Shown piece after piece: positions 16,097 through 50,345 of a DNA stretch of 64,000 nt; positions within the stretch are counted from its first letter, which is position 1, and each line of letters begins with the position of its first letter. A program made the translations under genes and the position numbers. The notes under the pieces were generated by a model that worked only from the letters and a program-made list of their open reading frames with translations, was not told where the DNA came from and ran no database searches. This DNA comes from Bacteroidales bacterium (GTDB lineage Bacteria > Bacteroidota > Bacteroidia > Bacteroidales > UBA932), in assembly GCA_022647615.1 (NCBI GenBank), contig JALCKZ010000001.1, forward strand, positions 1,848,178 through 1,912,177, read 5' to 3'.

Positions 16097-17002
16097 ATGG
16101 GAAAAATATCTAAAGCATTTTCAATCGCCATTATTGCAGTTGCAACCTTAGAATGCAGCACAATAAACGCCCAAACCGTAATTACATTCAATAAAAACGG
16201 AGTTTCTACCTCAACCAAAGGAGCTTCAAAGAAAGACATCAAAACAATTGACACTACCACATTTGAAGTCACATACAAAATGTTCTGGTTTAAAAACCCA
16301 GATGATCCGTTGAAAAAGAAGTTTCATGATAAGGAAAATTTTGAAGATTTATTGCTGCTTCAGGTTGGCAAAAATATTTCCAAATGCTTCTCATACAAGA
16401 CGTTCCAAAAAGACTCCCTTATAGAAGTAACTCCAGCTGACCAGATTATGGCAAACTTGGAGAAGTTCAATGGCGGTGTAACTTTTAACATCTATCATAA
16501 TTATCCCGACGGCAAACTCACATATACAGACAATATTTTGATGGACTCATTTTTATACACAGAACCTGAACCGGAAATAGATTGGATGCTGCAGCCGGAA
16601 ACAAAGGAAGTAATCGGTTATAGCTGTAACCGTGCAACATGCACATTCAGAGGTAGAAACTATGAAGCATGGTACACAAATGAGATTCCGTCCTCATCGG
16701 GTCCATGGAAGTTCCGCGGTCTCCCTGGCCTGATTCTCTCTGTAAAAGATGATTCCAGAATCATCAGTTATGAAGCCACAGGACTTAGAAAATGCTCGCA
16801 CCCAATAACTTATAAAGACGCTAAATACATCAGCACAAATAGAGAAAAGTTCAATCAGCAGGAGATAAAGTATCAAAAGGCTCCAATAGACTACATGTCA
16901 ACTAACTCCAATATCAAAATGACCATTACTAATCCGGATGGTTCTCCTTCTGATATGAGCCAGTTCAGGAATTTGCAGTACAATCAACTTGAACTGAAGT
17001 AA
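16097..17002 (+). CDS. GLPGLI family protein
   Basis: A 301-residue exported protein with a signal peptide (about 1-25, ending INAQ) and the family-defining motif RGLPGLIL near residue 214. It is preceded by TYEAWYTNEIP-like and SCNRATCTFRGRNYEAWY segments characteristic of the family. Function is unknown. GLPGLI genes commonly sit next to TonB-dependent-receptor-like outer-membrane proteins, as here. Likely periplasmic. It is divergent from a two-component operon and has phased TTAACAC boxes in its promoter, so I infer that this regulator controls it. Confidence 0.88.
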   Translation: MGKISKAFSIAIIAVATLECSTINAQTVITFNKNGVSTSTKGASKKDIKTIDTTTFEVTYKMFWFKNPDDPLKKKFHDKENFEDLLLLQVGKNISKCFSYKTFQKDSLIEVTPADQIMANLEKFNGGVTFNIYHNYPDGKLTYTDNILMDSFLYTEPEPEIDWMLQPETKEVIGYSCNRATCTFRGRNYEAWYTNEIPSSSGPWKFRGLPGLILSVKDDSRIISYEATGLRKCSHPITYKDAKYISTNREKFNQQEIKYQKAPIDYMSTNSNIKMTITNPDGSPSDMSQFRNLQYNQLELK

Positions 17003-17059
17003 TTGCATTGCATTTACAAGTACTCTTGTAATTCCAATAAAAGCACACTTATAATTCCA

Positions 17060-17140
17060 TTTACAAGTTCATTTACAGGTTTCGCTCTGGCTTACTCGTA
17101 CGAAACGCACTCGCTCAACTTCTGTAAATGAACTTGTAAA
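17060..17140. repeat. long inverted repeat between GLPGLI and barrel genes
   Basis: 19-bp perfect arms (17060-17078 and 17122-17140; TTTACAAGTTCATTTACAG) enclose 43 nt. Those 43 nt hold a smaller stem (GTTTCG/CGAAAC). The right arm ends 15 bp before the next start codon. There is no T run, so it looks more like a leader structure or a palindromic insertion than a simple terminator. Confidence 0.7.
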
Positions 17141-17155
17141 ATAATCATGACATAG

Positions 17156-20014
17156 ATGAAGTACATAGGCTTAAACATATTTTTAGTAGTGTTGTTTTTG
17201 TTGATAACAACCGGAAAAGCGGCTGCGCAAATATACAGCGGACATGTAGCAGATAAGGCTGATGGACAGCCGCTTTCAGGTGTTATTGTTACGGCATTGG
17301 ATGGCAGAGGTAAAATTATCAAATACACTACAACTAACAAAGCAGGAGATTTTGCAATGAGCATCCAGAATCCCGTGAAACTGGAATTTTCCATGATGAG
17401 CTACAAAAAAGTCTCTGTAATGGCATCTGCCGGCAAGCTCATTATTCTGATGAACATGGAGTCCACTAACCTAAAAGAAGTCTATGTAAAGGCCCCTAAA
17501 CTTACATTAAGGGGAGATACACTTGCCTACAATGTAGCAAGTTACGCAGAGGCGCAGGACAAGAATATTGGGGATGTAATAAAGAAAATGCCGGGCATTG
17601 AGATTAAAAAGGACGGAGAAATTTACTACAACGGAGAACCCATAAATAAATTTTACATAGACGGAAATGACATGGTAAGTGACCGATATGGTCTGGCTAC
17701 CAACAATATAAAACCGGAAGATGTGCAAAAGGTTGAAGTACTGGAGCATCATCAGCCAATAAAGTCGCTTAAAAACAAGGTATTCAGCGATAAAGCAGCA
17801 ATCAATTTAAAATTAAAAGAATCGGCCAAAGCCAGATGGGCCGGGAATCAGTCGGGAGCAGGAGGATATGCAAACAGCTCATATACTGAAGCCAGCAAAG
17901 CTGATAAAGTAGATAATAGATCTATACTATATAATGGGAACGCCTTCCTAATGAGGATGGGGAAAAAAAATCAGACAATGATTTCTGCAAAAACAGATAA
18001 CACAGGCAAAGATTTTTCATCTGATTTAGAGAGCTTTACAATAGAAGATTATGAGGCAGCAGACTCAAAGGATTACAAAGCAGAAACATGGTTCTCTGCA
18101 GGAACAACCGCTGCACCGCTGGACAGCAGAAGAACAAGATTCAACCGCTCTGCTCTAATGTCATTTGACAATTCAAAAAAGCTTAGTGATGATTACACAT
18201 TCAATGTTCATCTGGATTATTATTATGACCGTCTAACATCTTTATATACAGGCAATACAAAGTACTACCTAAAAGACAGCTCAATAAATGACAATACTTT
18301 TGAAGCAGCAAAAGCGTACACCCATAAGGCAGACATCAAGATGCATTTGAAAGCAAATACTGATAAGTTTTATATGTATGAAGGCCTTAAGGCAGGACTT
18401 GCTTGGCAAGATGCAAAAACTTACACAGCAGGTACTTATCCCAACAGGCAAAATGCATGGACGCCGCTGAATAGTTTCCAAAACAATTTAAAGTACATTA
18501 AAAATGCTGATAACAGCAAGACATTCACAATAGCTTCCGTAATTAAATACATAACTCAGAATCAGAATCTTCAAGTGAACAGAGATACATCAGCAATTGC
18601 GTCTGCTACAGCATTATCAGCAGCAATCAGCACAACAACATCAACATCAACATCAACATCGTCATCATCATCATCATCAGCGGTAGCAGCAGACAGCCTG
18701 CTTCAGCATCAGACAATCAACACAAAAGCTTTATACACAAACAATAACATAGCTTTTAGCGGAAACGTTGGAGCTTTTGTGTATGACTTTTCTTGCGGTG
18801 CAGAAGCGCTTTGGAAATCCTTAAAGACAAATCTGCAAGGGGTAAAAGACACATCTCTAATAATGGTTAATAACTTGACCACAGGATATTTAGGCTGTTA
18901 TGTAAAGCCGTCGCTGACATATAAGACATCGTCAATTAGAATAGAGTTTCAGATTCCGACAGGTTATTATTACTCTTTTATCCGCCAGGCAGATAAAAAG
19001 TTAGAGCGAGAAAACGCAAAATGGAGAAATTTAGAGGATAAAAATTCAGGCATGATAACCTACAAGCCAGAAATATATTTTACATGGTACCTTACAGGAA
19101 AATTCATGCTCTCCGCATCCGCCTCAATTGGGAAAGATGCGACAGATGTGGACAATATATATACAGGCGGCATTATGTCCGGCTACAGAAATATATCGTG
19201 CGGTATAAATGATTTTGCTCAATCTAAGTCTAAAAGCATTTCTGTTTCCGTTAATTACAAAGACCCGCTAAATGGACTTTTCTTTAACGCAGGAGCAGCC
19301 AGGACATGGAACAAAAATCCATATTTATCTTCTCAGCAATTTGATAATGAATATATTATAAGTTCATACTATAAAGAGAGCCACAACACAACAGCAGACT
19401 TTTTATATGGCGGGATAACTAAAAATATTGATGCTCTTGGAGGTCCAATTAAATTAGACGCAAGTTATACTCGCTTCAATTATAATTTAATGCAAAGCAT
19501 TGCTGCTTCATCATCAGGAGTTCAGGGTATCTCAACAGCCGCAAACAAAATCAAATATATTAGCAGCACACTCTCCATTAGCCCGCACTTAACATTCCAT
19601 TTTTCAAGCTGGCTTAATACAGAATATACGCTTAATTATCAACACTCTACATTAAAATTTGCAGACCGGAAAACCACTTCTCACAACAGCTATAGCCAAA
19701 AACTGGATTTGAATTTTGTTGTGGGAAAACATGTAACATTCCAACTTGTAACTGAACATTATCATACGGAACTGGGTGGAGCAAATTCAACAATAAATTC
19801 ATCAGAAAAAGGCAAGCGGACAAAAGACATGCTTTTGCAAGATTTTATGCTTCAGTGGAAAGTCAATAAATCATTGAGCATCAATTTGTACGCATATAAC
19901 TTGTTCAACAAGAAAGAATACGCATACACCGTATTCAGCGGCTCCACATCTGTAAGCAGTTCATACAGAATACGTCCGCGCAATGTAATGGCCGGGTTCT
20001 TATGGAGCTTTTAA
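17156..20014 (+). CDS. outer-membrane beta-barrel protein with carboxypeptidase-like regulatory domain
   Basis: 952 residues with a signal peptide (about 1-25). A CarboxypepD_reg-like domain follows (about 26-105; SGHVADKADGQPLSGVIV), then a plug-like region (about 120-215, with KKMPGIEIKKDGEIYYNG). The rest is barrel to the C-terminal aromatic AGFLWSF, the usual outer-membrane end signal. It resembles TonB-dependent-receptor-like proteins that pair with GLPGLI proteins, but no clear TonB box was identified. Residues about 479-512 are a Ser/Thr/Ala homopolymeric insert encoded by a trinucleotide-like microsatellite (ACATCA/TCATCA, 18637-18680). Probably co-regulated with the GLPGLI gene. Confidence 0.85.
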   Translation: MKYIGLNIFLVVLFLLITTGKAAAQIYSGHVADKADGQPLSGVIVTALDGRGKIIKYTTTNKAGDFAMSIQNPVKLEFSMMSYKKVSVMASAGKLIILMNMESTNLKEVYVKAPKLTLRGDTLAYNVASYAEAQDKNIGDVIKKMPGIEIKKDGEIYYNGEPINKFYIDGNDMVSDRYGLATNNIKPEDVQKVEVLEHHQPIKSLKNKVFSDKAAINLKLKESAKARWAGNQSGAGGYANSSYTEASKADKVDNRSILYNGNAFLMRMGKKNQTMISAKTDNTGKDFSSDLESFTIEDYEAADSKDYKAETWFSAGTTAAPLDSRRTRFNRSALMSFDNSKKLSDDYTFNVHLDYYYDRLTSLYTGNTKYYLKDSSINDNTFEAAKAYTHKADIKMHLKANTDKFYMYEGLKAGLAWQDAKTYTAGTYPNRQNAWTPLNSFQNNLKYIKNADNSKTFTIASVIKYITQNQNLQVNRDTSAIASATALSAAISTTTSTSTSTSSSSSSSAVAADSLLQHQTINTKALYTNNNIAFSGNVGAFVYDFSCGAEALWKSLKTNLQGVKDTSLIMVNNLTTGYLGCYVKPSLTYKTSSIRIEFQIPTGYYYSFIRQADKKLERENAKWRNLEDKNSGMITYKPEIYFTWYLTGKFMLSASASIGKDATDVDNIYTGGIMSGYRNISCGINDFAQSKSKSISVSVNYKDPLNGLFFNAGAARTWNKNPYLSSQQFDNEYIISSYYKESHNTTADFLYGGITKNIDALGGPIKLDASYTRFNYNLMQSIAASSSGVQGISTAANKIKYISSTLSISPHLTFHFSSWLNTEYTLNYQHSTLKFADRKTTSHNSYSQKLDLNFVVGKHVTFQLVTEHYHTELGGANSTINSSEKGKRTKDMLLQDFMLQWKVNKSLSINLYAYNLFNKKEYAYTVFSGSTSVSSSYRIRPRNVMAGFLWSF

Positions 20015-22164
20015 ATCTGCTTTAAAGGAAGAGCAAATAAGAATCTAGAACCGCCATGATATGAAGTATCCAAATAGACTTCACCACCAAGCGCATGAGC
20101 AATCAGACGGCAAATGTGAAGTCCCAAACCAGTCCCCTGTTCAAATGTATCAAGCTTCTCAAAGCGCTCAAAAATAGCATCAGATTTATCTTGAGGCACT
20201 CCTACTCCGGTATCAGTTACAGAGAACAATATCAAGCCTTTATCTGCTCCCTTAAGCACAGAATTAATTGATACTTCCTGCGTCTTTGCCTTACGATTAA
20301 CTTTTCTCTCAGATGGCAATTTATAACCTTCGCACCCTCCGATAAGCATCTCATAATCCAAAATTATTGAACCTTGTTTTGTAAACTTTGCAGCGTTTGT
20401 CAGGAAATTATCAAGCAAACGGACTATTTTTTGTTTATCAGTTTGAATAACAATGTCATCATTATGAGGCAAGAAAGACATAACTGTACAAGAATTTGCG
20501 TATTGAGGATGCTTCCTTGCAGAAGAAATGCAATAATCGCAAAGCCAATTAAGAGAACATTCTGAATTAGTGATTTGTATATCTCCTGACTCCATCATGG
20601 CGATATCCATAACATCATTAATTTTTGTTAAAAGAATCTCTGTATTCTCTTTAATAAGTTTGGAGAATTGCGTTTTTTCAGCCTTTTCCAAATCAGAATT
20701 TTCATCCGCCAGCATATCGGAAAAACCCACAATTGCATTTAAAGGAGTTCTTATCTCATGACTCATATTTTGAAGAAATACACTCTTCAGTTTATTGGCG
20801 CTCTCCGCCTTATTTTTTAAAATGCGGGTTTTTGCCAGAACCTTTATAGCGACAATAAGCAAAATCGTAAGTATAACAAGAAAAGCAATTGCTACTATAA
20901 TTACCATCCTGCTGAACCTCAAATCAGAACGGGCATTATCAATTTTAAGTTTGTTAACGTCATATAGAACCTGCAGCTCTTTAGTTTTTTCCTTAACACT
21001 CTCGCTTCTCTCCGCTTTTACAGCATCAAGATACTCAAGGGTATACTTTAACAAATCCGGATCATTAGGAATAGAGCGCCCTGCCAGAACTCTGTCTCTC
21101 AAACATTCTTGCCACATCCATTTTTCAGATTTGCTTTTACTATTTAGAGCTGCATCCAAATATGGAATAGCTTTTTCATATTGTTTTGTAGCCATATAAT
21201 ATCTTATATATGAGATAGAATATGGAGCATCAAAATCTTCTGCAATTTTTGGATTACCATCTGCCAATGCTTTTATTTTTACAAACAATGCCTCAATCTC
21301 AGCTTTGGATAGAACCGTTGTATCCATAAGCATCCTTCTATAGCTGACGTAGTAATATGAATCCAATTTTCTAAACTTCCTCCCCTCTTTTTTATATTTA
21401 TTCTCCAATTTAGAACCTATTTCAATCAATTTTAAATCAGCATTATAAGACTTTTCCAACATTCCTTTGCGGGAATAAAAATTTGCAGCAAGTACATAAT
21501 AGACGCCCGGCAGAACTTCTCGTCCGTCAGAAGGGAGCTTGTTTATTAATTTCCCCAAGTCACCAATATAATCAGCATACAGACTATCAGTTGTGACATA
21601 AGAGAGCGCAGCGCAAAGGTTAAAAAGCATCCCGACAGATTCATATATTTTCCCCTTTTTATTAGAGGATATAAAATCAGCATCATCAATATTTATTTTC
21701 TTAGCACTCTCAATCAAATTGCATAGCATTTCAGATTTTTCCCTATCACTTTTATAATCAAAGGTCTTAATAGTGTAAACATACTTAAGATATGTAACAA
21801 CCTCCTTTTGTGCATTGCTGGAAGGAAGTTTCTCGGCATGTACAATATAGCGGGCTATTGTATCTGATTTATCTATATTCATCAGATTCCTAATTGCTTC
21901 CAATTCCGTTATCTCATCTTTTCTTTCAGATGAAATGTTCCACAACAAACGGTTATATTTTATGTAATGAGCAGTATCTGAAGTTATATCCATAAGGTTG
22001 TGGAGCAATCTAACTTTACTTGAATACGACGGCTGCTTGGAAAGCTCCGCCACAAGACTGTCTGATGTTTTAGAAAGCGAACCAGCTGTCACACACGGAA
22101 ATAAGATGACAAGCGATACAGTTGCAAGTACGGATATGAATATTTTCTTAAAGGAATATCTCAT
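20011..22164 (-). CDS. sensor histidine kinase, array member A (last gene of array)
   Basis: 717 residues, the shared plan of the array. A signal peptide/anchor (1-25) leads into an all-helical extracytoplasmic sensor with TPR-like repeats (about 30-400; for example YMATKQYEKAIPYLDAAL at 323-340). The motif YYYVSYRRML is conserved across paralogues, as is KTKELQVLYD just before the single TM (about 417-442). A short linker, DHp domain (His469 in [11 protein letters not shown]) and CA domain follow (N-box LDNFLTNAAKF, G1 DTGVGVP, G2 [11 protein letters not shown]). A 40-residue insert separates N-box and G1. It ends 4 bases inside the convergent barrel gene. There is no receiver domain. A regulator partner is not obvious. 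Confidence 0.9.
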   Translation of the reverse strand: MRYSFKKIFISVLATVSLVILFPCVTAGSLSKTSDSLVAELSKQPSYSSKVRLLHNLMDITSDTAHYIKYNRLLWNISSERKDEITELEAIRNLMNIDKSDTIARYIVHAEKLPSSNAQKEVVTYLKYVYTIKTFDYKSDREKSEMLCNLIESAKKINIDDADFISSNKKGKIYESVGMLFNLCAALSYVTTDSLYADYIGDLGKLINKLPSDGREVLPGVYYVLAANFYSRKGMLEKSYNADLKLIEIGSKLENKYKKEGRKFRKLDSYYYVSYRRMLMDTTVLSKAEIEALFVKIKALADGNPKIAEDFDAPYSISYIRYYMATKQYEKAIPYLDAALNSKSKSEKWMWQECLRDRVLAGRSIPNDPDLLKYTLEYLDAVKAERSESVKEKTKELQVLYDVNKLKIDNARSDLRFSRMVIIVAIAFLVILTILLIVAIKVLAKTRILKNKAESANKLKSVFLQNMSHEIRTPLNAIVGFSDMLADENSDLEKAEKTQFSKLIKENTEILLTKINDVMDIAMMESGDIQITNSECSLNWLCDYCISSARKHPQYANSCTVMSFLPHNDDIVIQTDKQKIVRLLDNFLTNAAKFTKQGSIILDYEMLIGGCEGYKLPSERKVNRKAKTQEVSINSVLKGADKGLILFSVTDTGVGVPQDKSDAIFERFEKLDTFEQGTGLGLHICRLIAHALGGEVYLDTSYHGGSRFLFALPLKQI

Positions 22165-22209
22165 ATTAAATGATTTGCTTTATCCAATGCATTACAATTT
22201 ATGCAACAT

Positions 22210-24327
22210 TTATTTTATAGGATGGGCAAACAAAAATCTTGCACCTCCGTGGTATGAAGTATCCAGTTTAACTTCTGCATGTAACCCTTTGGCAATCAAC
22301 GCACAAATATGAAGTCCTATTCCGCTGCCCGCAACAAATTTATCCAGCCGTGCAAATCTGCGGAAAATCATTTGCGCCTCCTCCGCAGGAACATCACGCC
22401 CGGTATCTGTAACTGAAAATAAAATAACTCCCTTATCCTCTAATCCCCTATCTTCCTCATTCTTTGTATCTTGGATTAAAGCATAATCGCCGACAAACTT
22501 GTCCGGCTCAATTTGATAGTCTACTGTTATGCTCCCTTCCTTTGTAAATTTGCATGCATTTGTCAGGAAATTCACAAGAACCTGAATAGTTCTTCTTCTA
22601 TCGGTGACAAACATATAATTCTCTGCATGAGGCTTATACAAAATCTCAACACCTTTATTTGCGTAACCTTGAGTACTTGCAACAGCAAACTGGCAAATCT
22701 CATTTATACTATATGACTTTAACTCAAATTTCATGTTGCCGGATTCCATTTCTGAAATATCAAGAATGTCATTTACCATCCCAAGCAGAATAGCTGTGTT
22801 CTTGTCTATCAATGACATATACTCCTTTCTTTCATCAGAAGAGAGCACATCCCCATCCTCCGCCAGCAATCTTGAGAAACCTGTAATACCATTCAACGGA
22901 GTACGAATTTCATGATTCATATTCTGGATAAAGACTGTTTTCATGTTGTTGGCATGCTCCGCCTTTTCTTTCTCTATATTCAATTTTTTTAGCGTCTCCG
23001 ATAGTTTTTGGGAGAGTCTCTGGCTGTTTTTCAGCAGATGGAATGTAATTGCCAGCAAAAGAATGACTATCAGCAGCGCCGCCAAAGAGAAATAAGGGAA
23101 TTTAATAGTATCTTTTTGCTTGTCACTCTCAACATCATACAAGAATCTAAGAGACCTGGCAGTATTCTCAAAATAGACATTTGTTGAATCATGAGTGGTA
23201 TAAAAATACTTCATGGCAGCAGGAAGCATATTCTTATCATGCAGAGAATCACCTGCTATTATTCTGTAATTCAAGCACTCTTGTCTAATCCAATTAAGAG
23301 AATCCGCAGGACTGTTTACAGCTACATCAAGTATCGGCAACGCCTTGTCATACTGTTTAGTAAAAAAATAATATCTAATTTTCGAGATAGGCGCGGGACT
23401 GGAGAAATCATAATAAACTTCTGCATTCCTGGAGGCAATAACCTTGATAGAAGAGTATATTTTATCTATTTGAGCTCTCGACAGGACATTAGAAAGGGTG
23501 AGCATTCTGCAGAGAGTGACGTATCTCATAGGGTCTCTTGTAAAATAAATTCTGCCTTCTTTTTTCTTCATATTTTCAAAGTCTGAGCAGAATTTAATCA
23601 ATTGAACATCAGATGCCAGCGCTTCATTCTCCATATTGCTTCCAAAATAAAATTTAGAAGACATGGAACAATAAATCTTCCTTAGCAAATAGCTTGGACG
23701 ATTCTTAAACTTTCCCAGCAAATCTCTTGTAGCATATATATAATGGGAATAAAGTTCAGAGGCAGAGGTATATGAGAGCAAATAAGACAGAATCAGCAAG
23801 TTGCCCGTTTTTTCATAAAGCGTTGGGAATTTGTTATTCTGAATTTTGTCTCTAAACGCTTTTACCTTTATGGAAAAATCAGCGGTATTCAATCCGTGAG
23901 ATATGGATGAAACCATATCATAATACCTTAAATATTGCACAAGCTCTCTCTGCTTATCAGATACTGGAAGATGCTTTGCCATATCCAAAAATCTTGGCAT
24001 CTCTTTTTCAAATTCATTTGCAAGATTTGCCAGAGCAACATATTGGTTATCAACATCTTTATTTTCGGATGCAAGATTTAAAATCTGTAATGATGTATTC
24101 CTCCTCTCCTCATTGGAATCAGACAAATCCAATATATTAAGGAGAATATTTATTTTTTGTTTATAGGGCAGGTTATCATTGTATATGCGCACAAGACTAT
24201 CTCTTGTATTGCTTCTAAATGCCGGAAACTGAATATTTTCCTGTGCATTTAGATTCACATGACCAGCAAATATGCAAAACAGAAACTGCAATACTGCTGC
24301 AACCGCAAACAGATGATATCTTTTCAT
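22210..24327 (-). CDS. sensor histidine kinase, array member B
   Basis: 705 residues with signal peptide 1-28, helical sensor, TM about 411-432 and phospho-acceptor His472 in [13 protein letters not shown]. The N-box VNFLTNACKF is intact, but the G1 box reads DTGRDVP: the second Gly of DxGxG is replaced by Asp. The F-box region FRRFARLDKF and G2 GSGIGLHICAL remain. Nucleotide binding could be weakened or altered. It shares this change with member C, its upstream neighbour (34-nt gap), so the two are sister duplicates. The sensor motif has drifted (MRYVTLCRML). Confidence 0.88.
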   Translation of the reverse strand: MKRYHLFAVAAVLQFLFCIFAGHVNLNAQENIQFPAFRSNTRDSLVRIYNDNLPYKQKINILLNILDLSDSNEERRNTSLQILNLASENKDVDNQYVALANLANEFEKEMPRFLDMAKHLPVSDKQRELVQYLRYYDMVSSISHGLNTADFSIKVKAFRDKIQNNKFPTLYEKTGNLLILSYLLSYTSASELYSHYIYATRDLLGKFKNRPSYLLRKIYCSMSSKFYFGSNMENEALASDVQLIKFCSDFENMKKKEGRIYFTRDPMRYVTLCRMLTLSNVLSRAQIDKIYSSIKVIASRNAEVYYDFSSPAPISKIRYYFFTKQYDKALPILDVAVNSPADSLNWIRQECLNYRIIAGDSLHDKNMLPAAMKYFYTTHDSTNVYFENTARSLRFLYDVESDKQKDTIKFPYFSLAALLIVILLLAITFHLLKNSQRLSQKLSETLKKLNIEKEKAEHANNMKTVFIQNMNHEIRTPLNGITGFSRLLAEDGDVLSSDERKEYMSLIDKNTAILLGMVNDILDISEMESGNMKFELKSYSINEICQFAVASTQGYANKGVEILYKPHAENYMFVTDRRRTIQVLVNFLTNACKFTKEGSITVDYQIEPDKFVGDYALIQDTKNEEDRGLEDKGVILFSVTDTGRDVPAEEAQMIFRRFARLDKFVAGSGIGLHICALIAKGLHAEVKLDTSYHGGARFLFAHPIK

Positions 24328-24361
24328 AATAGGTTGCTTTCTGCACTCAAAGGTAGAAAGT

Positions 24362-26428
24362 TTAATTATTAATTATCGGGTGAATGAACAAAAATCTTGC
24401 ACCACCTCGGTAAGAAGTATCTAATTTAGCTTCCGCATGCAATCCTTTGGCAATCAAAGCACAAATGTGCAAGCCAAGGCCGCTCCCCTGTTTAAATCTG
24501 TCCAACTTTGTAAAGCGTCTAAATATAGCATCTGCCTTATCAGCCGGAATATCTCTCCCCGTATCCGTCACAGAAAAAGTCACAAAGCCCTGCTGCTCAA
24601 GACTATATTCAACCGTTATACTTCCCTTTACAGTAAATTTACATGCGTTTGTCAAATAGTTAATCAGAACCTGCGCCAATCTGTTTCTGTCGGTGACAAG
24701 GATAAAATCCTCAGGATGAGGGTTAAATATCATCTGGACCCCTTCGGCGGCTCTATTTTTAACGCTGGAAACCACAAAACTGCAAATGTCGTTTAGACTA
24801 TTTGGCATAAGGTTATATTTAACCTCCCCTGCCTCCATTTCCGCCACATCTACGACATCACTAACCATGGAAAGCATCAAATCAGAATTCTTGGTAACAA
24901 GCTGCATATATTCATTTTTCTCCTCTTTGGATAGCGTATCTCCCTCTTCCACAATCAGTCTGGAAAATCCGTTAATTGCGTTCAACGGTGTCCTTATCTC
25001 ATGGTTCATGTTCTGCAAGAACACTGTCTTCATCTTATTGGCATTAACTGCTCTCTGCTTTGCCAGATTAAGATTGCGCATTGCTTTAGATAACCTGACA
25101 GATAATTTTCTTGACCGCCTCAAAAAGTAAAGAGCAATTATTAGAAGAACAATAACAACAAAAAGCGCTGCAAATGAGATATATAGAATCTTCATTGTGG
25201 CCGCCTGCTTAAGATTGTTAAAATCATATACCACCTGAAGCTCTTTAGATTTCTCAGCAATGTTCTCCTGCTGCATCTCTTCCAGACACGCAACATACTG
25301 AATAGCATAATCTTGCATATTTTTATCCCCGACAGCTTCTCCTGCAACCAGCCTGTATTTTAATGCCTCTCTTAAAAAACCCTTATCTGCAATTTTCTTT
25401 TTAAGAGCGCTGTCCAAAATTGGAATAAGAATATCATACTGCTTAGTAGAAAAATAGTAGCGGGACCTCGCTATAGGAGTGTTATAAAAATCATCATTGA
25501 CATCATCCTGTTTTGCAGCTAAAACCTTTATTTTCTGGAAAATAGCATCAATTTGCCCTCTGGAAAGGACATTAGAATAAGTTAACATTCTTCTATAACT
25601 GACATACCTGAAGCGGTCCATGTTCTTATAAATTCTCCCCACAGATTTGTAGTATGCTTCCATGTTATCTTCCAGCTTAAGAAGGTTTAAATCAGCAGCA
25701 AGCGCCTCTTTATTTTGCTTTTGCTTAAAATAGTAAAGTGCTGCAACAGAATAATATGTATTTGAAATTAAACTAACTCCGGAATATCGCGGCAGCTTAT
25801 CTATCATTTTTCCAAGGTCCTTCAAATATCTCCCGTATAAATCACCCTTTGAATAATATGAAAGGTTATAGCAAAGAATTAGCAAATCGCCGCATTTTTG
25901 ATAGATATCCCCTCCTCTGCCCTCTTCATATACTTTGATTAAATTGCTTATATGCGCGGCTTTTACCTTTTCATTTGTATAGTCATTAACCTTTGCGTTC
26001 TCCCTGTACCTTATAAATTGTTTTACATCTTTTTGTTCGTCTGATGCAGGAACTTTTTCTATAAGTTCCAGACAATCAAACTTTGTAGGATCCTCCAGCT
26101 GCTCAATGTCTTTGATAGATTCTATCTGAATATGATAGTCATTATTCTCTTTGGAAAGCCTGTACATGTCTTTTGCAATGATACCTCTAAGTGAATCATT
26201 ATCAGCTAAATCATATATATCAAGCGCAATTTTTATTTTCTGCTTGTAAGGCATTTTGCCGGCACGGTTATAGACACGCAGCAAGCTGTCTCTTATTGCC
26301 TCCCTATCAATTCTGACATGCGCAGCACTCTGTGCACCAATAGAAACCGGGGTGATTGACAACAGAAACAATAAGAATGAGGTGACAATAAATACTTTAG
26401 GGGCGACATTCAAAAACTTCATAAACAA
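24362..26428 (-). CDS. sensor histidine kinase, array member C
   Basis: 688 residues with TM about 413-436 and a short coiled-coil-like linker. His476 lies in [13 protein letters not shown], the N-box is [10 protein letters not shown], the G1 variant is DTGRDIP, and G2 is GSGLGLHICAL. The sensor carries FRYVSYRRML near residue 273-282 and the KELQVVYD juxtamembrane motif. The gene starts 9 nt after the stop of member D. The G1 Gly-to-Asp change is shared with B only, which dates the substitution before their duplication. Confidence 0.9.
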   Translation of the reverse strand: MFMKFLNVAPKVFIVTSFLLFLLSITPVSIGAQSAAHVRIDREAIRDSLLRVYNRAGKMPYKQKIKIALDIYDLADNDSLRGIIAKDMYRLSKENNDYHIQIESIKDIEQLEDPTKFDCLELIEKVPASDEQKDVKQFIRYRENAKVNDYTNEKVKAAHISNLIKVYEEGRGGDIYQKCGDLLILCYNLSYYSKGDLYGRYLKDLGKMIDKLPRYSGVSLISNTYYSVAALYYFKQKQNKEALAADLNLLKLEDNMEAYYKSVGRIYKNMDRFRYVSYRRMLTYSNVLSRGQIDAIFQKIKVLAAKQDDVNDDFYNTPIARSRYYFSTKQYDILIPILDSALKKKIADKGFLREALKYRLVAGEAVGDKNMQDYAIQYVACLEEMQQENIAEKSKELQVVYDFNNLKQAATMKILYISFAALFVVIVLLIIALYFLRRSRKLSVRLSKAMRNLNLAKQRAVNANKMKTVFLQNMNHEIRTPLNAINGFSRLIVEEGDTLSKEEKNEYMQLVTKNSDLMLSMVSDVVDVAEMEAGEVKYNLMPNSLNDICSFVVSSVKNRAAEGVQMIFNPHPEDFILVTDRNRLAQVLINYLTNACKFTVKGSITVEYSLEQQGFVTFSVTDTGRDIPADKADAIFRRFTKLDRFKQGSGLGLHICALIAKGLHAEAKLDTSYRGGARFLFIHPIINN

Positions 26429-26437
26429 ACTTTAAAA

Positions 26438-28489
26438 TTAAACCATCGGGATTCTAAAAATAAATCTGGACCCGCTCTTATAATTTTTGTCAACTGATGC
26501 TGTGCCATGCAATCCCCTGGCAATCAGTTTGCATATATGGAGTCCAAGACCGGTGCCTTGAGAAAACTTATTTAATTTCTCAAAACGATTGAACACTTCA
26601 TCCATCTTGTCTTCCGGAATACCAATGCCGGTATCTGTTACAGAGAAAGTTATATAACCTGAGACGTGGTCTGTTTTATAATCCAATACAATAGAGCCTG
26701 ACTTTGTAAACTTGCAAGCATTAGTAAGATAATTAATCAGCACCTGTTCAACTCTCTGGAAATCAGACACTATAGAGACATCTTGGGTGTGGGATTTAAA
26801 AATCATCTGAACTCCGCTCTGGCAATTTTTCTTAACAGAATCAACAGCCATGCTGCAGACAGAGTTCACGGAAAATGAAGCAAATTTATACTTCATCTCT
26901 CCGCTTTCCATGCTTGCAATATCCAGAACATCACCAACTAATGTAAGAAGCAAATCTCCGTTTTTATTTATCATATCAACATATTGACTTGAGTCTTTTG
27001 CAGACAATGTTCCTTGATTTTCAGAAAGAAGCTGAGAAAAACCGATTATAGCATTCAGCGGGGTCCTTATCTCATGGCTCATATTCTGCAAGAACATGGT
27101 TTTCATCTTATTAGCGCTGTTAGCAGCATCTTTTGCAACCACCAGTTCTTTCTCATCTTTCTTGGCGCGCAAAAGAAGGCGGACTGTCAAAATCAATAAA
27201 ACCACAACTAATAGCAAAAAGCCGCTAGTGATTAGCAGCGTGCGTCTTATAGATTTTTGCTCAATGGCATTTGAATCATAAACCAATTGAAGTTCCTTAG
27301 TCTTTGCTTCAAAATTTATTTCTTTATCCTGCTCAAGCTGATCTATATATTTTTCCAGATATGGCTGCAAATCCTTATCTTTTAATGCTCTGCCGGCAAT
27401 AATTTTATCTTTAAGGGCCTCCTTTTGAAACCATCTATATGAAGCTGCGCTATCTTTTAATGCAGTATTTAAATATGGCGTTGCTCTTTTGTAATCTTTT
27501 ATTGCCATATAATATCTAATCTGAGCTGGAGAATCATCAGAGAACATATCTTCATATAATTCAGCATTGCCATCCGTTAACGCCTTCATCTTTGCATACG
27601 CCTCATCTATCTGAGCTCTGTTAAGTACGTCAGGCATCTGAAACATCCTTCTATAGCATACATACCTAAATGCGTCCATGTTCCTATATATTCTCCCTTG
27701 AACCGCATGTTTTTTATCCAGCTCATCTAATATCTTCAGCAACTCATTATTAGCAGCATACGCCTCTTTCTGCATATCTTGCTTTAAGTAATAAGTAACA
27801 GCCATTACGTAGTATAAATTTGACAAAAGCGTGCGAGAATTAGAAGGCAATTGCTTAACAAGAGCATTTAATTTTGATAGATAATCCGCATACACTTTGC
27901 CTTTAGAGGAATTTCCCATGAAAGCGCAAAGCACAAATAAATCTCCAACCCTTTCATAGATATCGGCATGTTCACTGCTTTTTTGCTTCTCAATAGAAGC
28001 ATGCAGCATTTGCGAAATTTTTTTACTGTTGTATATGGTCATGCTTTGGCTAACCAGGTAAAAACGAGTAAATTGCAATGCTTCTTTTGTATAATTATTC
28101 TTAGGAAGTTTTAAAAGAGTATTATAATAATCAATTGTATTAAAGCGCATATCGCTGGCAACATTTCCGACAGCTTCATTAACCAGAGGATAGTCTTTAT
28201 GTTTTACTGCATCCCAGAACAGCTTATCGGCATAACATTCGCTGATAGAATCAGTTGTTGCAAGGTCCATCAAATCCAAAAGAACATGGACCTTATTTTT
28301 ATATGAAAGCTTATTATGCTTCAAAACGTTTTGAAGACTATCGCTGATTTCTATCCTTCTAGAGTCAGATATTCGCGTAGGAGCCTTAGCTGCTTGTTTC
28401 TGAGCATAAATAGCAGACGGCAACAGCAATGTAGATAGCACAAAAATCACTAATCCTCTATACATATTCTTATAAAAATTTGCTGCCAT
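26438..28489 (-). CDS. sensor histidine kinase, array member D
   Basis: 683 residues with signal peptide 1-29 and TM about 417-440. His472 lies in [13 protein letters not shown], the N-box is [11 protein letters not shown]1 is the canonical DTGIGIP, the F-box region is FNRFEKLNKF, and G2 is [11 protein letters not shown]. All catalytic boxes are consensus, so this is expected to be an active kinase. The sensor motif is FRYVCYRRMF. It starts 12 nt after member E ends. Closest in its catalytic region to members F and G. Confidence 0.9.
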   Translation of the reverse strand: MAANFYKNMYRGLVIFVLSTLLLPSAIYAQKQAAKAPTRISDSRRIEISDSLQNVLKHNKLSYKNKVHVLLDLMDLATTDSISECYADKLFWDAVKHKDYPLVNEAVGNVASDMRFNTIDYYNTLLKLPKNNYTKEALQFTRFYLVSQSMTIYNSKKISQMLHASIEKQKSSEHADIYERVGDLFVLCAFMGNSSKGKVYADYLSKLNALVKQLPSNSRTLLSNLYYVMAVTYYLKQDMQKEAYAANNELLKILDELDKKHAVQGRIYRNMDAFRYVCYRRMFQMPDVLNRAQIDEAYAKMKALTDGNAELYEDMFSDDSPAQIRYYMAIKDYKRATPYLNTALKDSAASYRWFQKEALKDKIIAGRALKDKDLQPYLEKYIDQLEQDKEINFEAKTKELQLVYDSNAIEQKSIRRTLLITSGFLLLVVVLLILTVRLLLRAKKDEKELVVAKDAANSANKMKTMFLQNMSHEIRTPLNAIIGFSQLLSENQGTLSAKDSSQYVDMINKNGDLLLTLVGDVLDIASMESGEMKYKFASFSVNSVCSMAVDSVKKNCQSGVQMIFKSHTQDVSIVSDFQRVEQVLINYLTNACKFTKSGSIVLDYKTDHVSGYITFSVTDTGIGIPEDKMDEVFNRFEKLNKFSQGTGLGLHICKLIARGLHGTASVDKNYKSGSRFIFRIPMV

Positions 28490-28501
28490 TATATATGAGT
28501 T

Positions 28502-30172
28502 TTACTTGATTTCATTTGCGTTTTTTCTAGCAGACTCCAACACATCACCAACAATTTTCAGTAGTAAGCGGCCATTATTTACAATTTCGTCCACATATCT
28601 TGCCGCCTCTTTTTCATCCATGGTACCTCTCTCCGCAATAAGCAGCTGAGAGAATTTTACAATAGAATCCAAAGGTTTCCTGATATCCTGCTTCATGTTC
28701 TTTAAGAACCTTGTTTTAAGATTATTAGCACTTTCTGCCTGTTCCTTTGCATCTCTTATTTTATCCATTGCTTCAGATAGAATCCTCTTCTCCTCTTCTA
28801 GCTGAACGCTGGATTTCTTAAGCGAAACCTCCATCTTTCTGGATGAGTTCAAAAGTTTTAGCATAATAAAGAAGAGCGCAAGAAGGAAGAAAAATACTGC
28901 GGAAGCAATTGTTAAATTCCTATATGTAGATTTCTGTTTAAATGAATTTAAATCATACATGGTTTGCAGCTCTTTCGTTTTGCCTTCTATGTCAGATGAG
29001 AGCTCCACCTCCAGCCTGCCTATGTACATAAACAAGTACTTATCCATATTATTGTCTTTTATAGCATTACCAGCTATTATCCTGTTTTTCAGACAGTCAG
29101 AAAGCATCCACTTTAAAGAATCAGCATTTGAATCCAGCGCCGCATCCAAAAAAGGAATTGCCTTTGCATAATCTTTAACAGCCATGTAATAATTTATTTT
29201 TGCAGGAGAAGAAGCTGAACTAAAATCATAATATATCTCTTTATTTTTATCGGCAAGCTCTTTCATCTTGGAGTAATCCAGTTCAATTTGATTCTTGGAA
29301 AGGATTCGGCTCATTGATAATTCCCTCCTGTAATGGATGTACCTGTAAGTATCAAATGAAATATATTTTCTCCCCTGAGCTTTATATTCTCTCTCCAAGC
29401 CGTCATAATATGAGAGCATTGCGTTATTTACGGCATACGCATCCTCCAACATATCCTGGTCTATATAGAATGAAATCGCCATGCTGTAATACGTACCTGG
29501 CAAAACAGCTCTTCCGTCATCAGGAAGTTTTTCTATCAATTTTCCGAGCGTCTTTAAATAATCTGCATACAACTTGCCCGCAGAAGATTTAGACAAGAAC
29601 TTACAAAGAATCAGCAAATCCCCTGTTCTGCTATAAATGTCAGATTTCTTCCTTTCTGAATATTCTTTTATCAAAACATGGAGAATCTTGGCCGCAGCCT
29701 TGTCATCATACCTGTTAATTCCTTGAACTGCAATGCCATATCTCAAATACTGGAATGTCTCCTTCTGATTATTTGACGGAGCAAGTTTCCTGCAATAATC
29801 AAAATACGGAACCATTGCAGACTGCTCTTGATAATTATTCTCCAGGTACCTCATTGCAGCAAGCTGAAGAGGTATATCATTCTTGCTCTTAGCAAGATTG
29901 AACATCTCTTTTGCAGCGCTGAATCTTGCAGGGTCTGAAACTGATAAATCATAAATATCCAAAATCAGCTTAACTCTCTCTGAATAAGACAACTTGCCGC
30001 TTCTATACTTTGCAATAAGACTATCTCTAGTACTCTTATTACCAATTGAATTACCTAAAAGTCCTTCATCTGCAATTTTTTGAGGCGGTTTGATACAGTA
30101 GGCCTGCGTTGCTGAAAGAAGCATCAGCACCGCGGCGCAAGCCATAACAATATGTCTTTTAAAATTACTCAT
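28502..30172 (-). CDS. histidine-kinase paralogue lacking phospho-acceptor His and ATPase domain, array member E
   Basis: 556 residues. Signal peptide, sensor (YRYIHYRREL, KELQTMYD), TM (about 421-440) and a long coiled-coil linker are preserved. The H-box reads NMKQDIRKPLDSI, so Gln495 replaces the catalytic His and the next residue is Asp instead of Glu. The protein stops at the end of DHp helix 2 (VGDVLESARKNANEIK) with no CA domain. Only 12 nt separate its stop from member D, so no ATPase relic remains. The frame and sensor are clean, so it looks like a maintained non-catalytic protein rather than a decaying gene. Its start overlaps the member F stop by 1 nt (TAATG). Confidence 0.88.
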   Translation of the reverse strand: MSNFKRHIVMACAAVLMLLSATQAYCIKPPQKIADEGLLGNSIGNKSTRDSLIAKYRSGKLSYSERVKLILDIYDLSVSDPARFSAAKEMFNLAKSKNDIPLQLAAMRYLENNYQEQSAMVPYFDYCRKLAPSNNQKETFQYLRYGIAVQGINRYDDKAAAKILHVLIKEYSERKKSDIYSRTGDLLILCKFLSKSSAGKLYADYLKTLGKLIEKLPDDGRAVLPGTYYSMAISFYIDQDMLEDAYAVNNAMLSYYDGLEREYKAQGRKYISFDTYRYIHYRRELSMSRILSKNQIELDYSKMKELADKNKEIYYDFSSASSPAKINYYMAVKDYAKAIPFLDAALDSNADSLKWMLSDCLKNRIIAGNAIKDNNMDKYLFMYIGRLEVELSSDIEGKTKELQTMYDLNSFKQKSTYRNLTIASAVFFFLLALFFIMLKLLNSSRKMEVSLKKSSVQLEEEKRILSEAMDKIRDAKEQAESANNLKTRFLKNMKQDIRKPLDSIVKFSQLLIAERGTMDEKEAARYVDEIVNNGRLLLKIVGDVLESARKNANEIK

Positions 30173-32337
30173 TATCGGGTTTTATCATCATCTATAGAAG
30201 ATTCTTTTATTGGTATCTCAAACAAGAATCTTGACCCGCCTCTATAATTCTTATCAATAAACGCTTTGCCTTTCAGCTTATTAGCAATCAGCCGGCAAAT
30301 ATTAAGTCCCAGGCCGGTTCCCTGTGAAAAAGTATTTAACTTCTCAAAACGGTTAAAAATTAGGTCCATTTTGTCCTCGGGAATTCCAATGCCTGTATCA
30401 GTTACAGAGAACGTAATCTTATCATTATCAGTAAAATAATCCAGAACTATAGAACCTTTCTCCGTGAACTTGCAGGCATTAGTTAAATAATTAAGAATCA
30501 CCTGCTGAACCCTCTGGATATCAGCAAACATTTTAACGTCATTCTCATGTTTGCAGAAAGATATACTTACCCCTGGTCTTACATTTTTCTCTACGCTCTT
30601 AATAGATGCGGTACATATTTCATTAGCAGAAAAATCTGTCGGGATAAACTTCATTTCCCCTGTCTCTATAGTGGAAATATCTAGCACATCGCTGATAATG
30701 GTAATAAGAAGGTTGCTGTTTTTGGATATTAAATCTACGTAAGCAGCTGCATCAGAAGGACTCATCTCTTTTCCGGAAGAGGCAAGCAACTGAGAAAAAC
30801 CTATTATAGAATTAAGCGGAGTCCTTACCTCATGGCTCATATTCTGCAAGAACATGGTTTTTAGATTATTGGCCTTGTTGGCTAAGTCTTCCGCCTTCAT
30901 TAAATCAACCATGGTGGAGGAAATTATCTTCTTCTCTTCCTGCAATTTTTGCTGGGCCGATTTAAGAGAAGATTTCATTCTTCTGGAACGCATTAGCAAT
31001 CTGAATACCACAGCAATAGCAAGAACCAGAATAACAACTGACATAATTATCAGGAACAGCAATCTGTTATTAGCCCTTTCTCTCATGTGACTCAAATCAT
31101 ACAGGACTTCAAGTTCCGCCTCCTTCTCTGTAATTCCAGCCTCTTTGCTCTTTTTAAGATAATTTGCATACCTCACAAGAGATTCATGCAAGTTAGTTGT
31201 ATCATTCAGAGCAACACCCGCCTTCACTCTCATTTTCAAGGTCTCAGGCATTCTCCACTGTAAAGAATCAGCATTAGATTTAATTGCAGCATCCAAATAC
31301 GGAATTGCTTTTTTATACTCTTTCTTTCCGTAATAATATCTTGCAAGTCCAATGGAGTTGCTGGCATACAGGTCATTATAGAGAACTGGATCTGCGGCGG
31401 CCAGCTCTTTTAATGTTTTAAAAACCATGTCTAATTGTTTTCCCGACAGTACCCTGCTGTATGTAAGCAATCGCCTGTAGCATAGGTAACGGTACTGATT
31501 CATAGTTAGATAGGCTCTACCTTGACTTTTATAAGAAGCCTCTAAAATGTTGTAAATCTTCAATAGTTGCATATCTGCAGCCAAAGCCTCTTTTTGCATA
31601 TCATGGCTGGCGTAGAAAGTTGCGCTCTGAGTGTAATAAAAAAGAGAAAGAATATTTCCTCCGTTAGGAGGCAGCGCCTTTATCGCCTTATCAGCATAAG
31701 CTATATACTTAGAATAAAGTTCACCTCTGGTAGAGAGAGAAATAAGTTTGCAAAGGACAAGCAAGTCTCCAACCCTTTCATAATCGTTGGAATATACATT
31801 TTGAGAATACTTCTTTATAAGCTCCTTTATAAGCTTAGTTCTTGAATTGTCAGTTGCCGCTTCCTTGCTGTTAATCAGTATCCTATAACGGAACAATTCA
31901 GATATTTCCCTGGAACGGTTATTCTTTGGGAGCCTTAATGCAACGTTAAGATACCTTTGAAGTTCTGGCTGTTCGTCAGTACAAAGAATTACAAGAGCAT
32001 CTATCTGGCCATTCAAATCATGTTGCTTAGAGGCCATATTGTATAACTTATCGGCGTAGGCAAACATTGAAGAATCATCAACAGACAAATCGCAGATATT
32101 TAAAAGCAAATTGACTTTCCGCTTATATGCAGCTGATGAATTATCTTTTGCAATTGTGGATGAATTAAGAATTTTTACAAGAGAATCTTTAAGTCTTATC
32201 CTTTGATTTACAGGTAGTGAGACTGAATAGCGAGCATGCCTGTTATGATAATTTTGCCCCGTGCAAACGGATGAAATAATTGTTACAGATACCGCAGCAA
32301 CAATTATCAAGAAATATTTGCACGTCTTTAGTTTCAT
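30172..32337 (-). CDS. sensor histidine kinase, array member F
   Basis: 721 residues with signal peptide 1-27, TM about 426-448 and a long coiled-coil-like linker (about 452-490, as in member E). His502 lies in NMSHEVRTPLNSI, the N-box is [11 protein letters not shown]1 is DTGIGIP and G2 is GTGLGLNICRL. The boxes are consensus, so activity is expected. The linker similarity and adjacency make it the likely parent or sister of the catalytically empty member E. The two stop/start codons overlap, which would favour equal, coupled translation. Sensor motif YRYLCYRRLL. Confidence 0.9.
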   Translation of the reverse strand: MKLKTCKYFLIIVAAVSVTIISSVCTGQNYHNRHARYSVSLPVNQRIRLKDSLVKILNSSTIAKDNSSAAYKRKVNLLLNICDLSVDDSSMFAYADKLYNMASKQHDLNGQIDALVILCTDEQPELQRYLNVALRLPKNNRSREISELFRYRILINSKEAATDNSRTKLIKELIKKYSQNVYSNDYERVGDLLVLCKLISLSTRGELYSKYIAYADKAIKALPPNGGNILSLFYYTQSATFYASHDMQKEALAADMQLLKIYNILEASYKSQGRAYLTMNQYRYLCYRRLLTYSRVLSGKQLDMVFKTLKELAAADPVLYNDLYASNSIGLARYYYGKKEYKKAIPYLDAAIKSNADSLQWRMPETLKMRVKAGVALNDTTNLHESLVRYANYLKKSKEAGITEKEAELEVLYDLSHMRERANNRLLFLIIMSVVILVLAIAVVFRLLMRSRRMKSSLKSAQQKLQEEKKIISSTMVDLMKAEDLANKANNLKTMFLQNMSHEVRTPLNSIIGFSQLLASSGKEMSPSDAAAYVDLISKNSNLLITIISDVLDISTIETGEMKFIPTDFSANEICTASIKSVEKNVRPGVSISFCKHENDVKMFADIQRVQQVILNYLTNACKFTEKGSIVLDYFTDNDKITFSVTDTGIGIPEDKMDLIFNRFEKLNTFSQGTGLGLNICRLIANKLKGKAFIDKNYRGGSRFLFEIPIKESSIDDDKTR

Positions 32338-32367
32338 TAATTTTTGTCTCTTTTTTTCACAGATAAT

Positions 32368-34488
32368 TTACTTGTCAAATGGGAGCGAAAACAAAAATTT
32401 TGAACCTTTTTTATACTCAGATTCCACCCATACTTTTCCGTGCAATCCCTTAGCTATCAGCTTGCAAATATGCAAACCAAGCCCTGTACCCTGGGCGAAT
32501 CTGTTAAGTTTTTCAAAGCGTTTAAATACTGTGTCAATTTTATCTGCGGGAATTCCTATTCCGGTATCCTCCACGCAAAAAACAATTTGGTTATTCGCAA
32601 CAATCTTGTTTTCAGCACTATTAGCATCCTGCGCAGAATTATTATTGCGCTGCTTTTCTACGTAATAATCAATCTTTATATTGCCCTTATCCGTAAACTT
32701 GCAAGCATTGGTAAGGTAGTTAATTAACACCTGCTCAACTCTTTGCGGATCCGTATTAAAAAGGAAATCGCTATCGTGAGGAAGAAAAGAGATATTTACT
32801 CCAGGCTTTGCATTGTTTCTCACGCTTTCTAATGAAGTAGCGCACAAGAAATTAGCAGAAGTATTAGTGATATTAAACTGCATTTCCCCGCTCTCCATCT
32901 TTGCAATATCCAGAACATCACCAACTAAAGTAAGCAGCAACTCTCCGTTCTTGCTAATCATTTCCTGATACTCCTTAGCATCCTCATCGGAAAGCTCTTT
33001 GTGATTCTCAGATATTAAAGCAGAGAAACCAACAACCGCATTAAGAGGCGTTCTGATTTCATGGCTCATATTCTGCAAGAACATGGTTTTCATCTTGTTA
33101 GCACTTTCAGCCTCCTCTTTTGCCTTAACCAGCTGACGTGCCAGCTTGCGGCTATTGCGCAAAGAAATATATGCGTAAACAGATAACAATAAAAGCAGAA
33201 ATGCTACAAGCATTGCAATTTCCCCGCGCTTCTTTGCAAGCCTGGCATCTGCCAATTTCTTTTGATTATCAAGGTTTTTCACCTTCTGCTGCAGGGAATT
33301 TATATCATATAATATTTGGAATTCAGTATATTTTGCGGCAATATCCTCCTCTGACTTTTGCTTTAACAATTCTATGTAATCCAATGCAACGGGAAGCAAC
33401 TTATCGGTTTTTCCGCTTGCCTTTGAAGCGGTTAGATAATAATCCATGCATTCATCTTTGTAGATAGCCTCCTTGCCGGATGCAAAATAGGCATCAAGCA
33501 AAGGAAGAGCATCAGAGTATTTCTTTGCAGCCATGTAATAGCGGATTCTGTCAATTGAATAAGGTGAGTTAAACTCCTCCGCAAGGTGGGAGCTGCGGTC
33601 AGATAACTCCTTCATTCTGGCATAGATATGTTCAATCTGAGCGTGAGACAAATATGAAGAATTGGAAAGCAAGCGGCTGTAACAATCATAATAAATGAAA
33701 TCAAAATTAGCATACTTTCTACCTTGCTTTCTTGCTTTTACTATAAGTCCGTCCAGCATGCTAATATTCTTTAAATCAGCGGCTATAGCCTCTTTGTGCA
33801 TCCCGGCCCTGGTGTAAAATATGCCAGCAAAAATGTAATACAAAGAGGGCAGATATTTGTTTCCATCCTTAGGCAAATTGCTAATCATTGTATCCAGCTG
33901 CTTCATGTAATTGCTGAATAATCTGCCATTTGTAGAGTAGAAGACAGATATGCAAACACCAAAAAGCTGTTGAATATTGCCGTATATGCCAATGTCATGA
34001 CCAAGAGATTTGTTATACTTAAGAATTATATTTTCCAAATTCTTAAGCTTCTCTTCCTCTTTAACCTGCCCAAATCCTAAAAATGCGCGGTCAACTTTTA
34101 AAAGAGTGATGACCTCATCCCTTGCATTAGAACGCGGAAGTTTCTCAGCCTTAGATATATAATAGCCGAGGGTATCTATGTTTCCAGTATTTCCAAAAGC
34201 ATGCAGAGCCTCAAGCTGCACAGGAATATCTTTATGAGCTGCAGCAAGATTATACAGTTTTCTGCTAACCCGCATCAGAGTCTTTGCTGACTGAAATAAA
34301 TCTAGGCTATCACGCAGGTTTGCAACCTGCATATTGTAATCACTTGCAACTTGTCTGTTATTACTACTTGCAACTTTACCAGTATAATGATGTAAGCCCT
34401 GTGCACTACTGCAAAAAGCTGTAGTACAACATATAACAAAGAATATTACCGTCACTTTCGTGACGGCATATTTAAACGGGCCAGGCAT
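32368..34488 (-). CDS. sensor histidine kinase, array member G (first gene of array)
   Basis: 706 residues with signal peptide about 1-29, TM about 425-443, His476 in [14 protein letters not shown]-box [11 protein letters not shown]1 DTGIGIP and G2 [11 protein letters not shown]. An Asn/Ala/Ser-rich insert ([16 protein letters not shown]) sits between N-box and G1. It is the most diverged sensor of the set ([11 protein letters not shown]). It begins 3 nt after the rubredoxin stop, so it is very probably on the same transcript as rubredoxin and rclA. A stable hairpin with a GAAA loop lies within codons 8-13 and may tune translation of the kinase segment. Confidence 0.9.
34449..34466 (-). promoter_or_regulatory. 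mRNA hairpin with GAAA tetraloop in first codons of kinase G
   Basis: On the coding strand CCGTCAC-GAAA-GTGACGG forms a 7-bp stem closed by a GNRA tetraloop, starting 22 nt after the start codon. It may slow initiation or mark an mRNA-processing boundary between rubredoxin and the kinases. No T run follows, so it is not a classic terminator. Confidence 0.45.
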
Positions 34489-36119: not shown

Positions 36120-36158
36120 ATTAATTTGTGTTTAACAAAATGTATAAAATCTACCTGC

Positions 36159-36770: not shown

Positions 36771-36885
36771 ATCATTTATAATTTTAAGATTAATTTCACA
36801 CTGCAAAGATGAGGTTCCACACCTCATAAATAAATAGCAAAACTTCCGCCCCTGTTGGCAATACTTCCCGATGGCACCCAAAATG

Positions 36886-36932: not shown

Positions 36933-36936
36933 GCAA

Positions 36937-37806: not shown

Positions 37807-37847
37807 AAACAAATATAATTCATAACTTTGATAAAAATACGGTCATT

Positions 37848-50265: not shown

Positions 50266-50345
50266 AATGTGTAAAAAATAACGGCATGGAGATTGTGAAA
50301 AAATGAGTGTATATTTGAAGTAATAACATTTAAAAAACTATCGAG

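Follow-up and report, generated by a model that had tools for sequence, protein, structure and literature searches.

Only a handful of single cases of bacterial histidine pseudokinases are known to us. In group A Streptococcus, the pseudokinase RocA acts on CovS, its acceptor His being dispensable and a form without the CA domain still able to complement (PMC7028121), and FasC still functions in a heterodimer with FasB when its kinase domain is absent (PMC12675982). In the RetS/GacS multikinase network of Pseudomonas aeruginosa, a single output is controlled by several sensor kinases that contact one another directly (PMC12189002, PMC5992135). DivL of Caulobacter, with Tyr at the acceptor position, signals without kinase or phosphatase activity (PMC4211667), and CA-truncated ChrS of Corynebacterium glutamicum boosts output through HrrS, a heterodimer not being shown in a two-hybrid assay (PMC9491836).

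We analysed a window of 64,000 nucleotides (positions 1848178–1912177 of a 2.23-Mb Bacteroidales genome represented by a single contig), in which an initial annotation had recognised seven tandem paralogous sensor histidine kinases, here named HK1 to HK7. The main point that it overlooked is the mixture within the array, where canonical kinases stand beside motif-variant and dead ones, as is also seen in relatives elsewhere. Nothing relevant on tandem histidine kinase arrays was found in a literature search.

HK5 resembles RocA, a membrane sensor-kinase homologue that works without acceptor His or CA, and its function is proposed by this analogy, among others; RocA, however, crosses the membrane six times and is an accessory protein on its own, whereas HK5 belongs to an array of its paralogues and lacks His as well as CA. 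FasB and FasC are, like the array, encoded by adjacent kinase-like genes, and the evidence points to a heterodimer that can do without one of its CA domains (PMC12675982), but their regulator, FasA, is linked and the acceptor His of FasC is intact, whereas the array has no linked receiver. A possible likeness to RetS/GacS, several kinases with one output, would rest in the array on shared contact residues of a common signature; RetS and GacS are hybrid kinases with different sensors, unlike the single sensor family and single gene run seen here. The Tyr of DivL recurs in eight relatives from the sensor family, although DivL has PAS sensors and weak ATP binding, and the His-less relatives keep all ATP-box residues. 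ChrS shares with HK5 the loss of CA activity and is a functional pseudokinase acting via a paralogous kinase (PMC9491836), but arose by a laboratory-evolved mutation, whereas the corresponding state in the HK family is natural and repeatedly evolved.

The sensor family constitutes a natural set in which His has been lost many times independently and ATP sites are intact; some of its members consist of little more than sensor and TM, and its arrays combine live and dead copies. Its comparison could address whether a kinase homologue can signal without its own histidine and whether tandem kinases form mixed dimers. In some genomes only four HisKA kinases were detected in total, one of them His-less, which makes an exhaustive search for partners feasible; in genome G271, a Ser-type member stands beside only three other HisKA kinases.

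Composition of the array

Table 1 Positions and properties of the array genes and of other loci mentioned in the text (window coordinates, unless the host genome or another locus is named)
Feature	Coordinates	Strand	Length (aa)	Properties
HK1	20011–22164	minus	717	Signal, TPR-like sensor, TM, DHp with His469, canonical CA
HK2	22210–24327	minus	705	His472 kept; CA with variant G1 box DTGRD
HK3	24362–26428	minus	688 from TTG; 686 from ATG at 26422	His kept; G1 box DTGRD
HK4	26438–28489	minus	683	His472 and CA canonical; sensor modelled with AlphaFold2
HK5	28502–30172	minus	556	Sensor and TM intact; DHp His replaced by Gln (MKQDIRKPL); no CA
HK6	30172–32337	minus	721	Canonical His and CA
HK7	32368–34488	minus	706	Canonical His and CA; sensor outgroup, kinase with HK4/HK6
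B1	host genome 1491–1494 kb, tandem with B2		738	Intact kinase
B2	host genome 1491–1494 kb, after B1		553	His replaced by Lys; no CA
RprY-like response regulator	13848–14354	minus		Receiver intact; frame broken near 13900, DNA-binding part in another frame
Kinase of RprY-like regulator	14357–15907			Intact
GLPGLI protein and TonB-like outer-membrane protein	16097–20014	plus		Convergent with HK1
RclA-/RclC-like genes and AraC-type regulator	34704–37812	minus		Reactive chlorine resistance (RclA/RclC)
Skew change	50000–52000			Minimum of window cumulative GC skew
Run of four TPR-sensor kinases	host genome 1566–1574 kb (L059 8007–16470)			One copy split over three frames
Run of SBP-type kinases	host genome 1614–1620 kb
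Hybrid kinase	L044/L063 9610–12675		1021	Acceptor His replaced by Asn (MGNELKTPL)
Tandem pair in another genome (G706)	L224 3839–6711			Both sensor and TM only, kinase domain absent

The seven same-strand paralogous genes were recovered exactly where they had been placed, and all seven reading frames are intact. Spacing from HK1 to HK7 is 45, 34, 9, 12, −1 and 30 nt, the start of HK5 being overlapped by one base of the HK6 stop codon, and HK7 is first in the order of transcription. Each protein has a hydrophobic N-terminal signal-like segment and crosses the membrane once, at a TM helix around residue 420, and all members share the YR-xYRRML and KELQxLYD motifs; inspection of motifs and TM helices, together with the predicted TPR-type solenoid, bore out these parts of the proposed common plan.

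The accompanying claim of DHp and CA domains in every member held for DHp, since all seven proteins passed the curated cut-off of PF00512 (HisKA), but not for CA: HATPase_c matched six of the seven, with HK5 lacking the domain, and HK2 and HK3 carry a G1 box of the form DxGxD. The acceptor His is present in six of the seven, within an H-box of M(S/N)HE(I/V)RTPL, and His is combined with canonical versions of all three CA boxes (N, G1, G2) only in HK1, HK4, HK6 and HK7. The DxGxD variant in place of DxGxG is confined to HK2 and HK3 among 94 CA-bearing family members, the other 92 keeping all seven N/G1/G2 residues; judging from the known role of the G1 box, this change may weaken ATP binding.

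Pairwise identity between array paralogues is 24–40% in the sensor (mean 33%), compared with means of 51.5% in DHp and 50.4% in CA. Lower conservation of the sensor than of DHp and CA is ordinary among histidine kinases, and the suggestion that sensor divergence reflects selection for different signals finds no particular backing in this contrast. The low sensor identity does indicate that the array members are old. It also rules out a copy number inflated by assembly, as the paralogues are too different to stem from a collapsed repeat and the genome is assembled as one contig.

The AlphaFold2 model of the HK4 sensor (pLDDT 92) is an all-helical array with a terminal 50-residue signalling helix. 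Its best matches in the PDB were LGN TPR domains (E 5e-4, TM-score only 0.38), with weaker matches to the peptide receptors Rap, NprR and AimR. The sensor is predicted to be a TPR-type solenoid; no Pfam TPR exceeded its cut-off in the array proteins, and comparison of the sensor profile with the PDB by sequence found no strong natural relative. As a mere guess, the ligand may be a peptide or protein.

Separate trees of sensor and kinase domains, a check put forward with the initial annotation, were incongruent for HK7. The sensor data rejected a clade of HK4, HK5, HK6 and HK7 (AU p = 0.010), and the kinase data rejected a position of HK7 outside the other members from the window and from G453, a genome of another family with a tandem run of its own (AU p = 0.017). 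HK4 and HK7 share 74% identity in DHp and 30% in the sensor. The kinase module of HK7 was likely exchanged within the array, through gene conversion or domain exchange.

HK5 ends directly after the DHp hairpin, and its DHp is free of His throughout. The hydrophobic core of this DHp nevertheless keeps 22 of 24 positions, and a full hairpin was predicted (AlphaFold2, mean pLDDT 90) in which a continuous helix runs through TM and alpha-1 and is followed by alpha-2. On the sensor tree HK5 is the sister of HK4 (95/91), with a branch of 0.73 against 0.73–1.46 in other array members, which is a normal rate and among the shortest, whereas its DHp branch is long (1.79 versus 0.27–0.57 in paralogues, about three to seven times). 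Truncation by a frameshift or sequencing error was ruled out, the 12 nt that separate HK5 from HK4 holding no CA remnant. Such a pattern would be expected if sensor, TM and pairing core had stayed under selection and the catalytic surface had been released. Mixed dimers are plausible because HK5, which on its own cannot phosphorylate anything, keeps its sensor, TM and DHp core; decay is possible as well, since HK5 has lost its regulator-contact residues and the DHp core of B2, the truncated protein at a second locus, is partly eroded (19/24 positions kept).

The sensor family and its acceptor histidine

Nine members of the sensor family occur in the host genome, B1 and B2 being the two outside the array. 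HK5 and B2 are both histidine pseudokinases in the sense of an intact frame without catalytic residues. B2 has a long DHp branch and pairs with B1 on the sensor tree, albeit weakly (86/74). A single inherited truncated type is disfavoured as the source of both proteins, given the groupings of HK5 with HK4 and of B2 with B1, with an AU test of common origin giving p = 0.08.

Full-length members of the family were not found in 38 congeners, and in other sampled genomes of the host's own family the full-length sensor was absent, with only short weak matches in six; many of these genus and family genomes are drafts, completeness exceeding 90% in only 12 of 39 genus genomes (host included). Of 297 genomes sampled from a different Bacteroidales family, f25, 167 gave a match, which was weak (E above 1e-20) in nine; most matching genomes list a single member, a lower bound, as the number of candidates per genome was capped. 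A sequence from a Muribaculaceae genome (L099) falls among those of f25 in the sensor tree, and f25 is on this basis probably Muribaculaceae. All nine host members form one clade (98) with the tandem run of the f25 genome G453, the HK1 sensor being closest to that array (L145). This patchy distribution suggests horizontal transfer of the sensor family, in one direction or the other, with its expansion coming later or at the same time.

A survey of 115 intact family members, mostly from f25 and including HK5 and B2, found His at the acceptor position in 62, another residue in 34 (Asn in 8, Tyr in 8, Ser in 6, Arg in 4, others in the rest), a decayed kinase region in 5, too decayed to show the boxes, and no kinase in 14, which consist of sensor and TM only (442–498 aa). 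A pair of such sensor-only proteins lies in tandem in one genome (Table 1). At least nine changes between His and not-His are required on each of two trees that omit HK5 and B2, one of sensors and one of kinase domains from which the H-box columns had been removed, compared with 20 or more for shuffled labels on the kinase-domain tree; a larger sensor tree including HK5 and B2 required 11. By these reconstructions, the acceptor His has been lost independently at least nine times in the family.

Every ATP-box residue is kept in all 32 His-less proteins that possess a CA. For the sole His-less pair with unsaturated dS (L152/L158), NG86 dN/dS was 0.134 in the sensor, 0.013 in DHp and 0.044 in CA, values that indicate purifying selection on DHp and CA despite the missing His. 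The loss of His is concentrated in this sensor family, as other HisKA kinases of the control genomes nearly all keep it: 26 of 26 recovered in five f25 genomes, and 29 of 31 kinases in the host genome, with HK5 and one hybrid kinase as the exceptions (B2 lies outside this set). Of the 34 His-less members, 31 retain the Glu that follows the acceptor position, whereas Thr at +4 drops from 37 of 62 His-bearing to 5 of 34 His-less members (Fisher p = 3e-5, kinship ignored). His at +14 occurs in 12 of 34 His-less versus 9 of 62 His-bearing members (Fisher p = 0.037) and is a possible alternative acceptor in some of the former.

Arrays in two other genomes place His-less beside His-bearing members (H, K and N at the acceptor positions of L170; H and G in L238). 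In approximately 20 f25 genomes a His-less protein is the only family member among the matches listed, from which it follows that pairing within the family is not a general rule and that the partner, if any, would come from another kinase family.

The host genome encodes 37 HisKA kinases, compared with 1–8 (median about 3) in its congeners, apart from two exceptions with 22 and 11. SBP-type kinases also occur there in a tandem run, as do four TPR-sensor kinases (Table 1); membership of the latter in the HK sensor family was considered and found no support, profile comparison giving a probability of 5%. The 1021-aa hybrid kinase with Asn in place of His adjoins other kinases with weak H-boxes.

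Regulators, partners and rival explanations

The absence of a receiver in or next to the array, as initially described, is correct for the array itself and its direct neighbours, but an RprY-like regulator and its kinase lie ~ 5.7 kb downstream; the frame of this regulator is broken, through an error of sequencing or because the gene itself is defective. In relatives, too, a linked regulator was sought and discounted, receivers flanking only 3 of ~ 100 f25 loci, with no neighbour conserved across loci. Among 17 receivers of the host genome, most are part of hybrids or lie beside a kinase, and the clearest orphans are only two, a lone 123-aa receiver (at 1320715) and an NtrC-type regulator (at 1088771).

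Positions His+7, +8, +11 and +12 set regulator specificity in kinases of the PhoQ/EnvZ type. These read N-A/G/S-G-F in all six His-bearing array kinases, DSKF in HK5, and SVAA and SGLC in the two readable regulator-paired kinases of the host genome. Most other orphan and hybrid kinases of that genome carry N-A/G/S-G-F too, and because an N-A-G-F type of contact surface is widespread, the shared signature does not identify one receiver. The proposal of a single distant regulator gains indirect support as regards convergence, from six kinases with the same contact residues and from the two orphan receivers, through a signature that is a common one.

Our preferred reading, held at somewhat less than even confidence and partly by analogy, is that the array encodes receptors that are expressed together and feed the same unlinked regulator, with HK5 joining them as a partner that contributes only a sensor. 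The seven genes probably form a single transcription unit for membrane receptors of one family, each with a periplasmic TPR-type solenoid, a long signalling helix that runs through one TM, and a DHp. Those members that keep His would all phosphorylate the same receiver, encoded at another locus. HK5, and likewise B2, would be a receptor subunit that has lost catalysis; HK5 would most likely pair through DHp and the signalling helix with a kinase expressed from the same array, so that the dimer would contain a second type of sensor and the output of the partner would rise or fall. HK2 and HK3 could act as acceptor-bearing partners, provided that ATP binding is indeed weakened by their variant G1 box. 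The role of HK5 as a partner draws on its intact frame, kept DHp core and normal sensor rate, on the repetition of the arrangement in B1/B2, and on the mixed arrays elsewhere. The truncated HK5, together with at least nine losses of His in a wider family that keeps the ATP-binding site, suggests that some receptors signal as partners of other kinases rather than as kinases.

A tenable but lesser prospect is an ordinary lineage-specific expansion, with six independent homodimeric kinases sensing different ligands and cross-talking to one or a few regulators, and HK5 left as an inert remnant. Kinase proliferation is indeed general in the host genome, with tandem runs at two further loci, and the DHp of HK5 is fast-evolving; a mere remnant sits less well with an intact 556-codon frame whose sensor evolves normally and whose signal segment and TM are kept, with the same type of truncation in B2, and with mixed arrays in other genomes. 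The thought that HK5, B2 and the G1 variants represent early neutral decay in a recently enlarged family, the array being without joint function, could appeal to the long DHp branches of both truncated proteins and to the three-frame split member of the TPR-kinase run, but we consider it highly improbable in view of the age of the array members, their seven intact frames and the purifying selection on His-less kinases of relatives.

Alternatively, the sensor, TM and DHp may be the working part throughout, with catalysis on the protein's own His optional, so that family members would be allosteric modulators like DivL or would use their CA on a partner from another kinase family. The tally of acceptor residues, the repeated His changes on all three trees, the complete ATP boxes and the constraint on L152/L158 all speak for this, as do five genomes in which no HisKA kinase recovered other than the family member lacks His, and the precedent of DivL, which acts on CckA with neither kinase nor phosphatase activity of its own (PMC4211667). 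We nonetheless find it unlikely: six of the seven array members keep His, the HExxT signature and CA, so that catalysis is maintained there, and the +14 His offers a possible alternative acceptor in some His-less members. A wider proposal, doubtful in our estimation, is that this receptor family of gut Bacteroidales gave up the acceptor His repeatedly with CA kept under selection, that CA would either act in trans on another kinase's His or serve as a switch gated by ATP, and that the arrays would offer acceptor-bearing, ATP-binding and sensor-only subunits to mix and match.

Genes flanking the array

Directly upstream of the array, 215 nt before HK7, lie the RclA-/RclC-like genes and an AraC-type regulator. 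At the other end, the genes for the GLPGLI protein and the TonB-like outer-membrane protein are convergent with HK1, with a 4-nt overlap. A similar TonB-like gene adjoins a kinase in a congener (G002, contig C50), the contig ending just past it. Further along the window, GC skew flips sharply from negative to strongly positive (0.33) at its cumulative minimum (Table 1).
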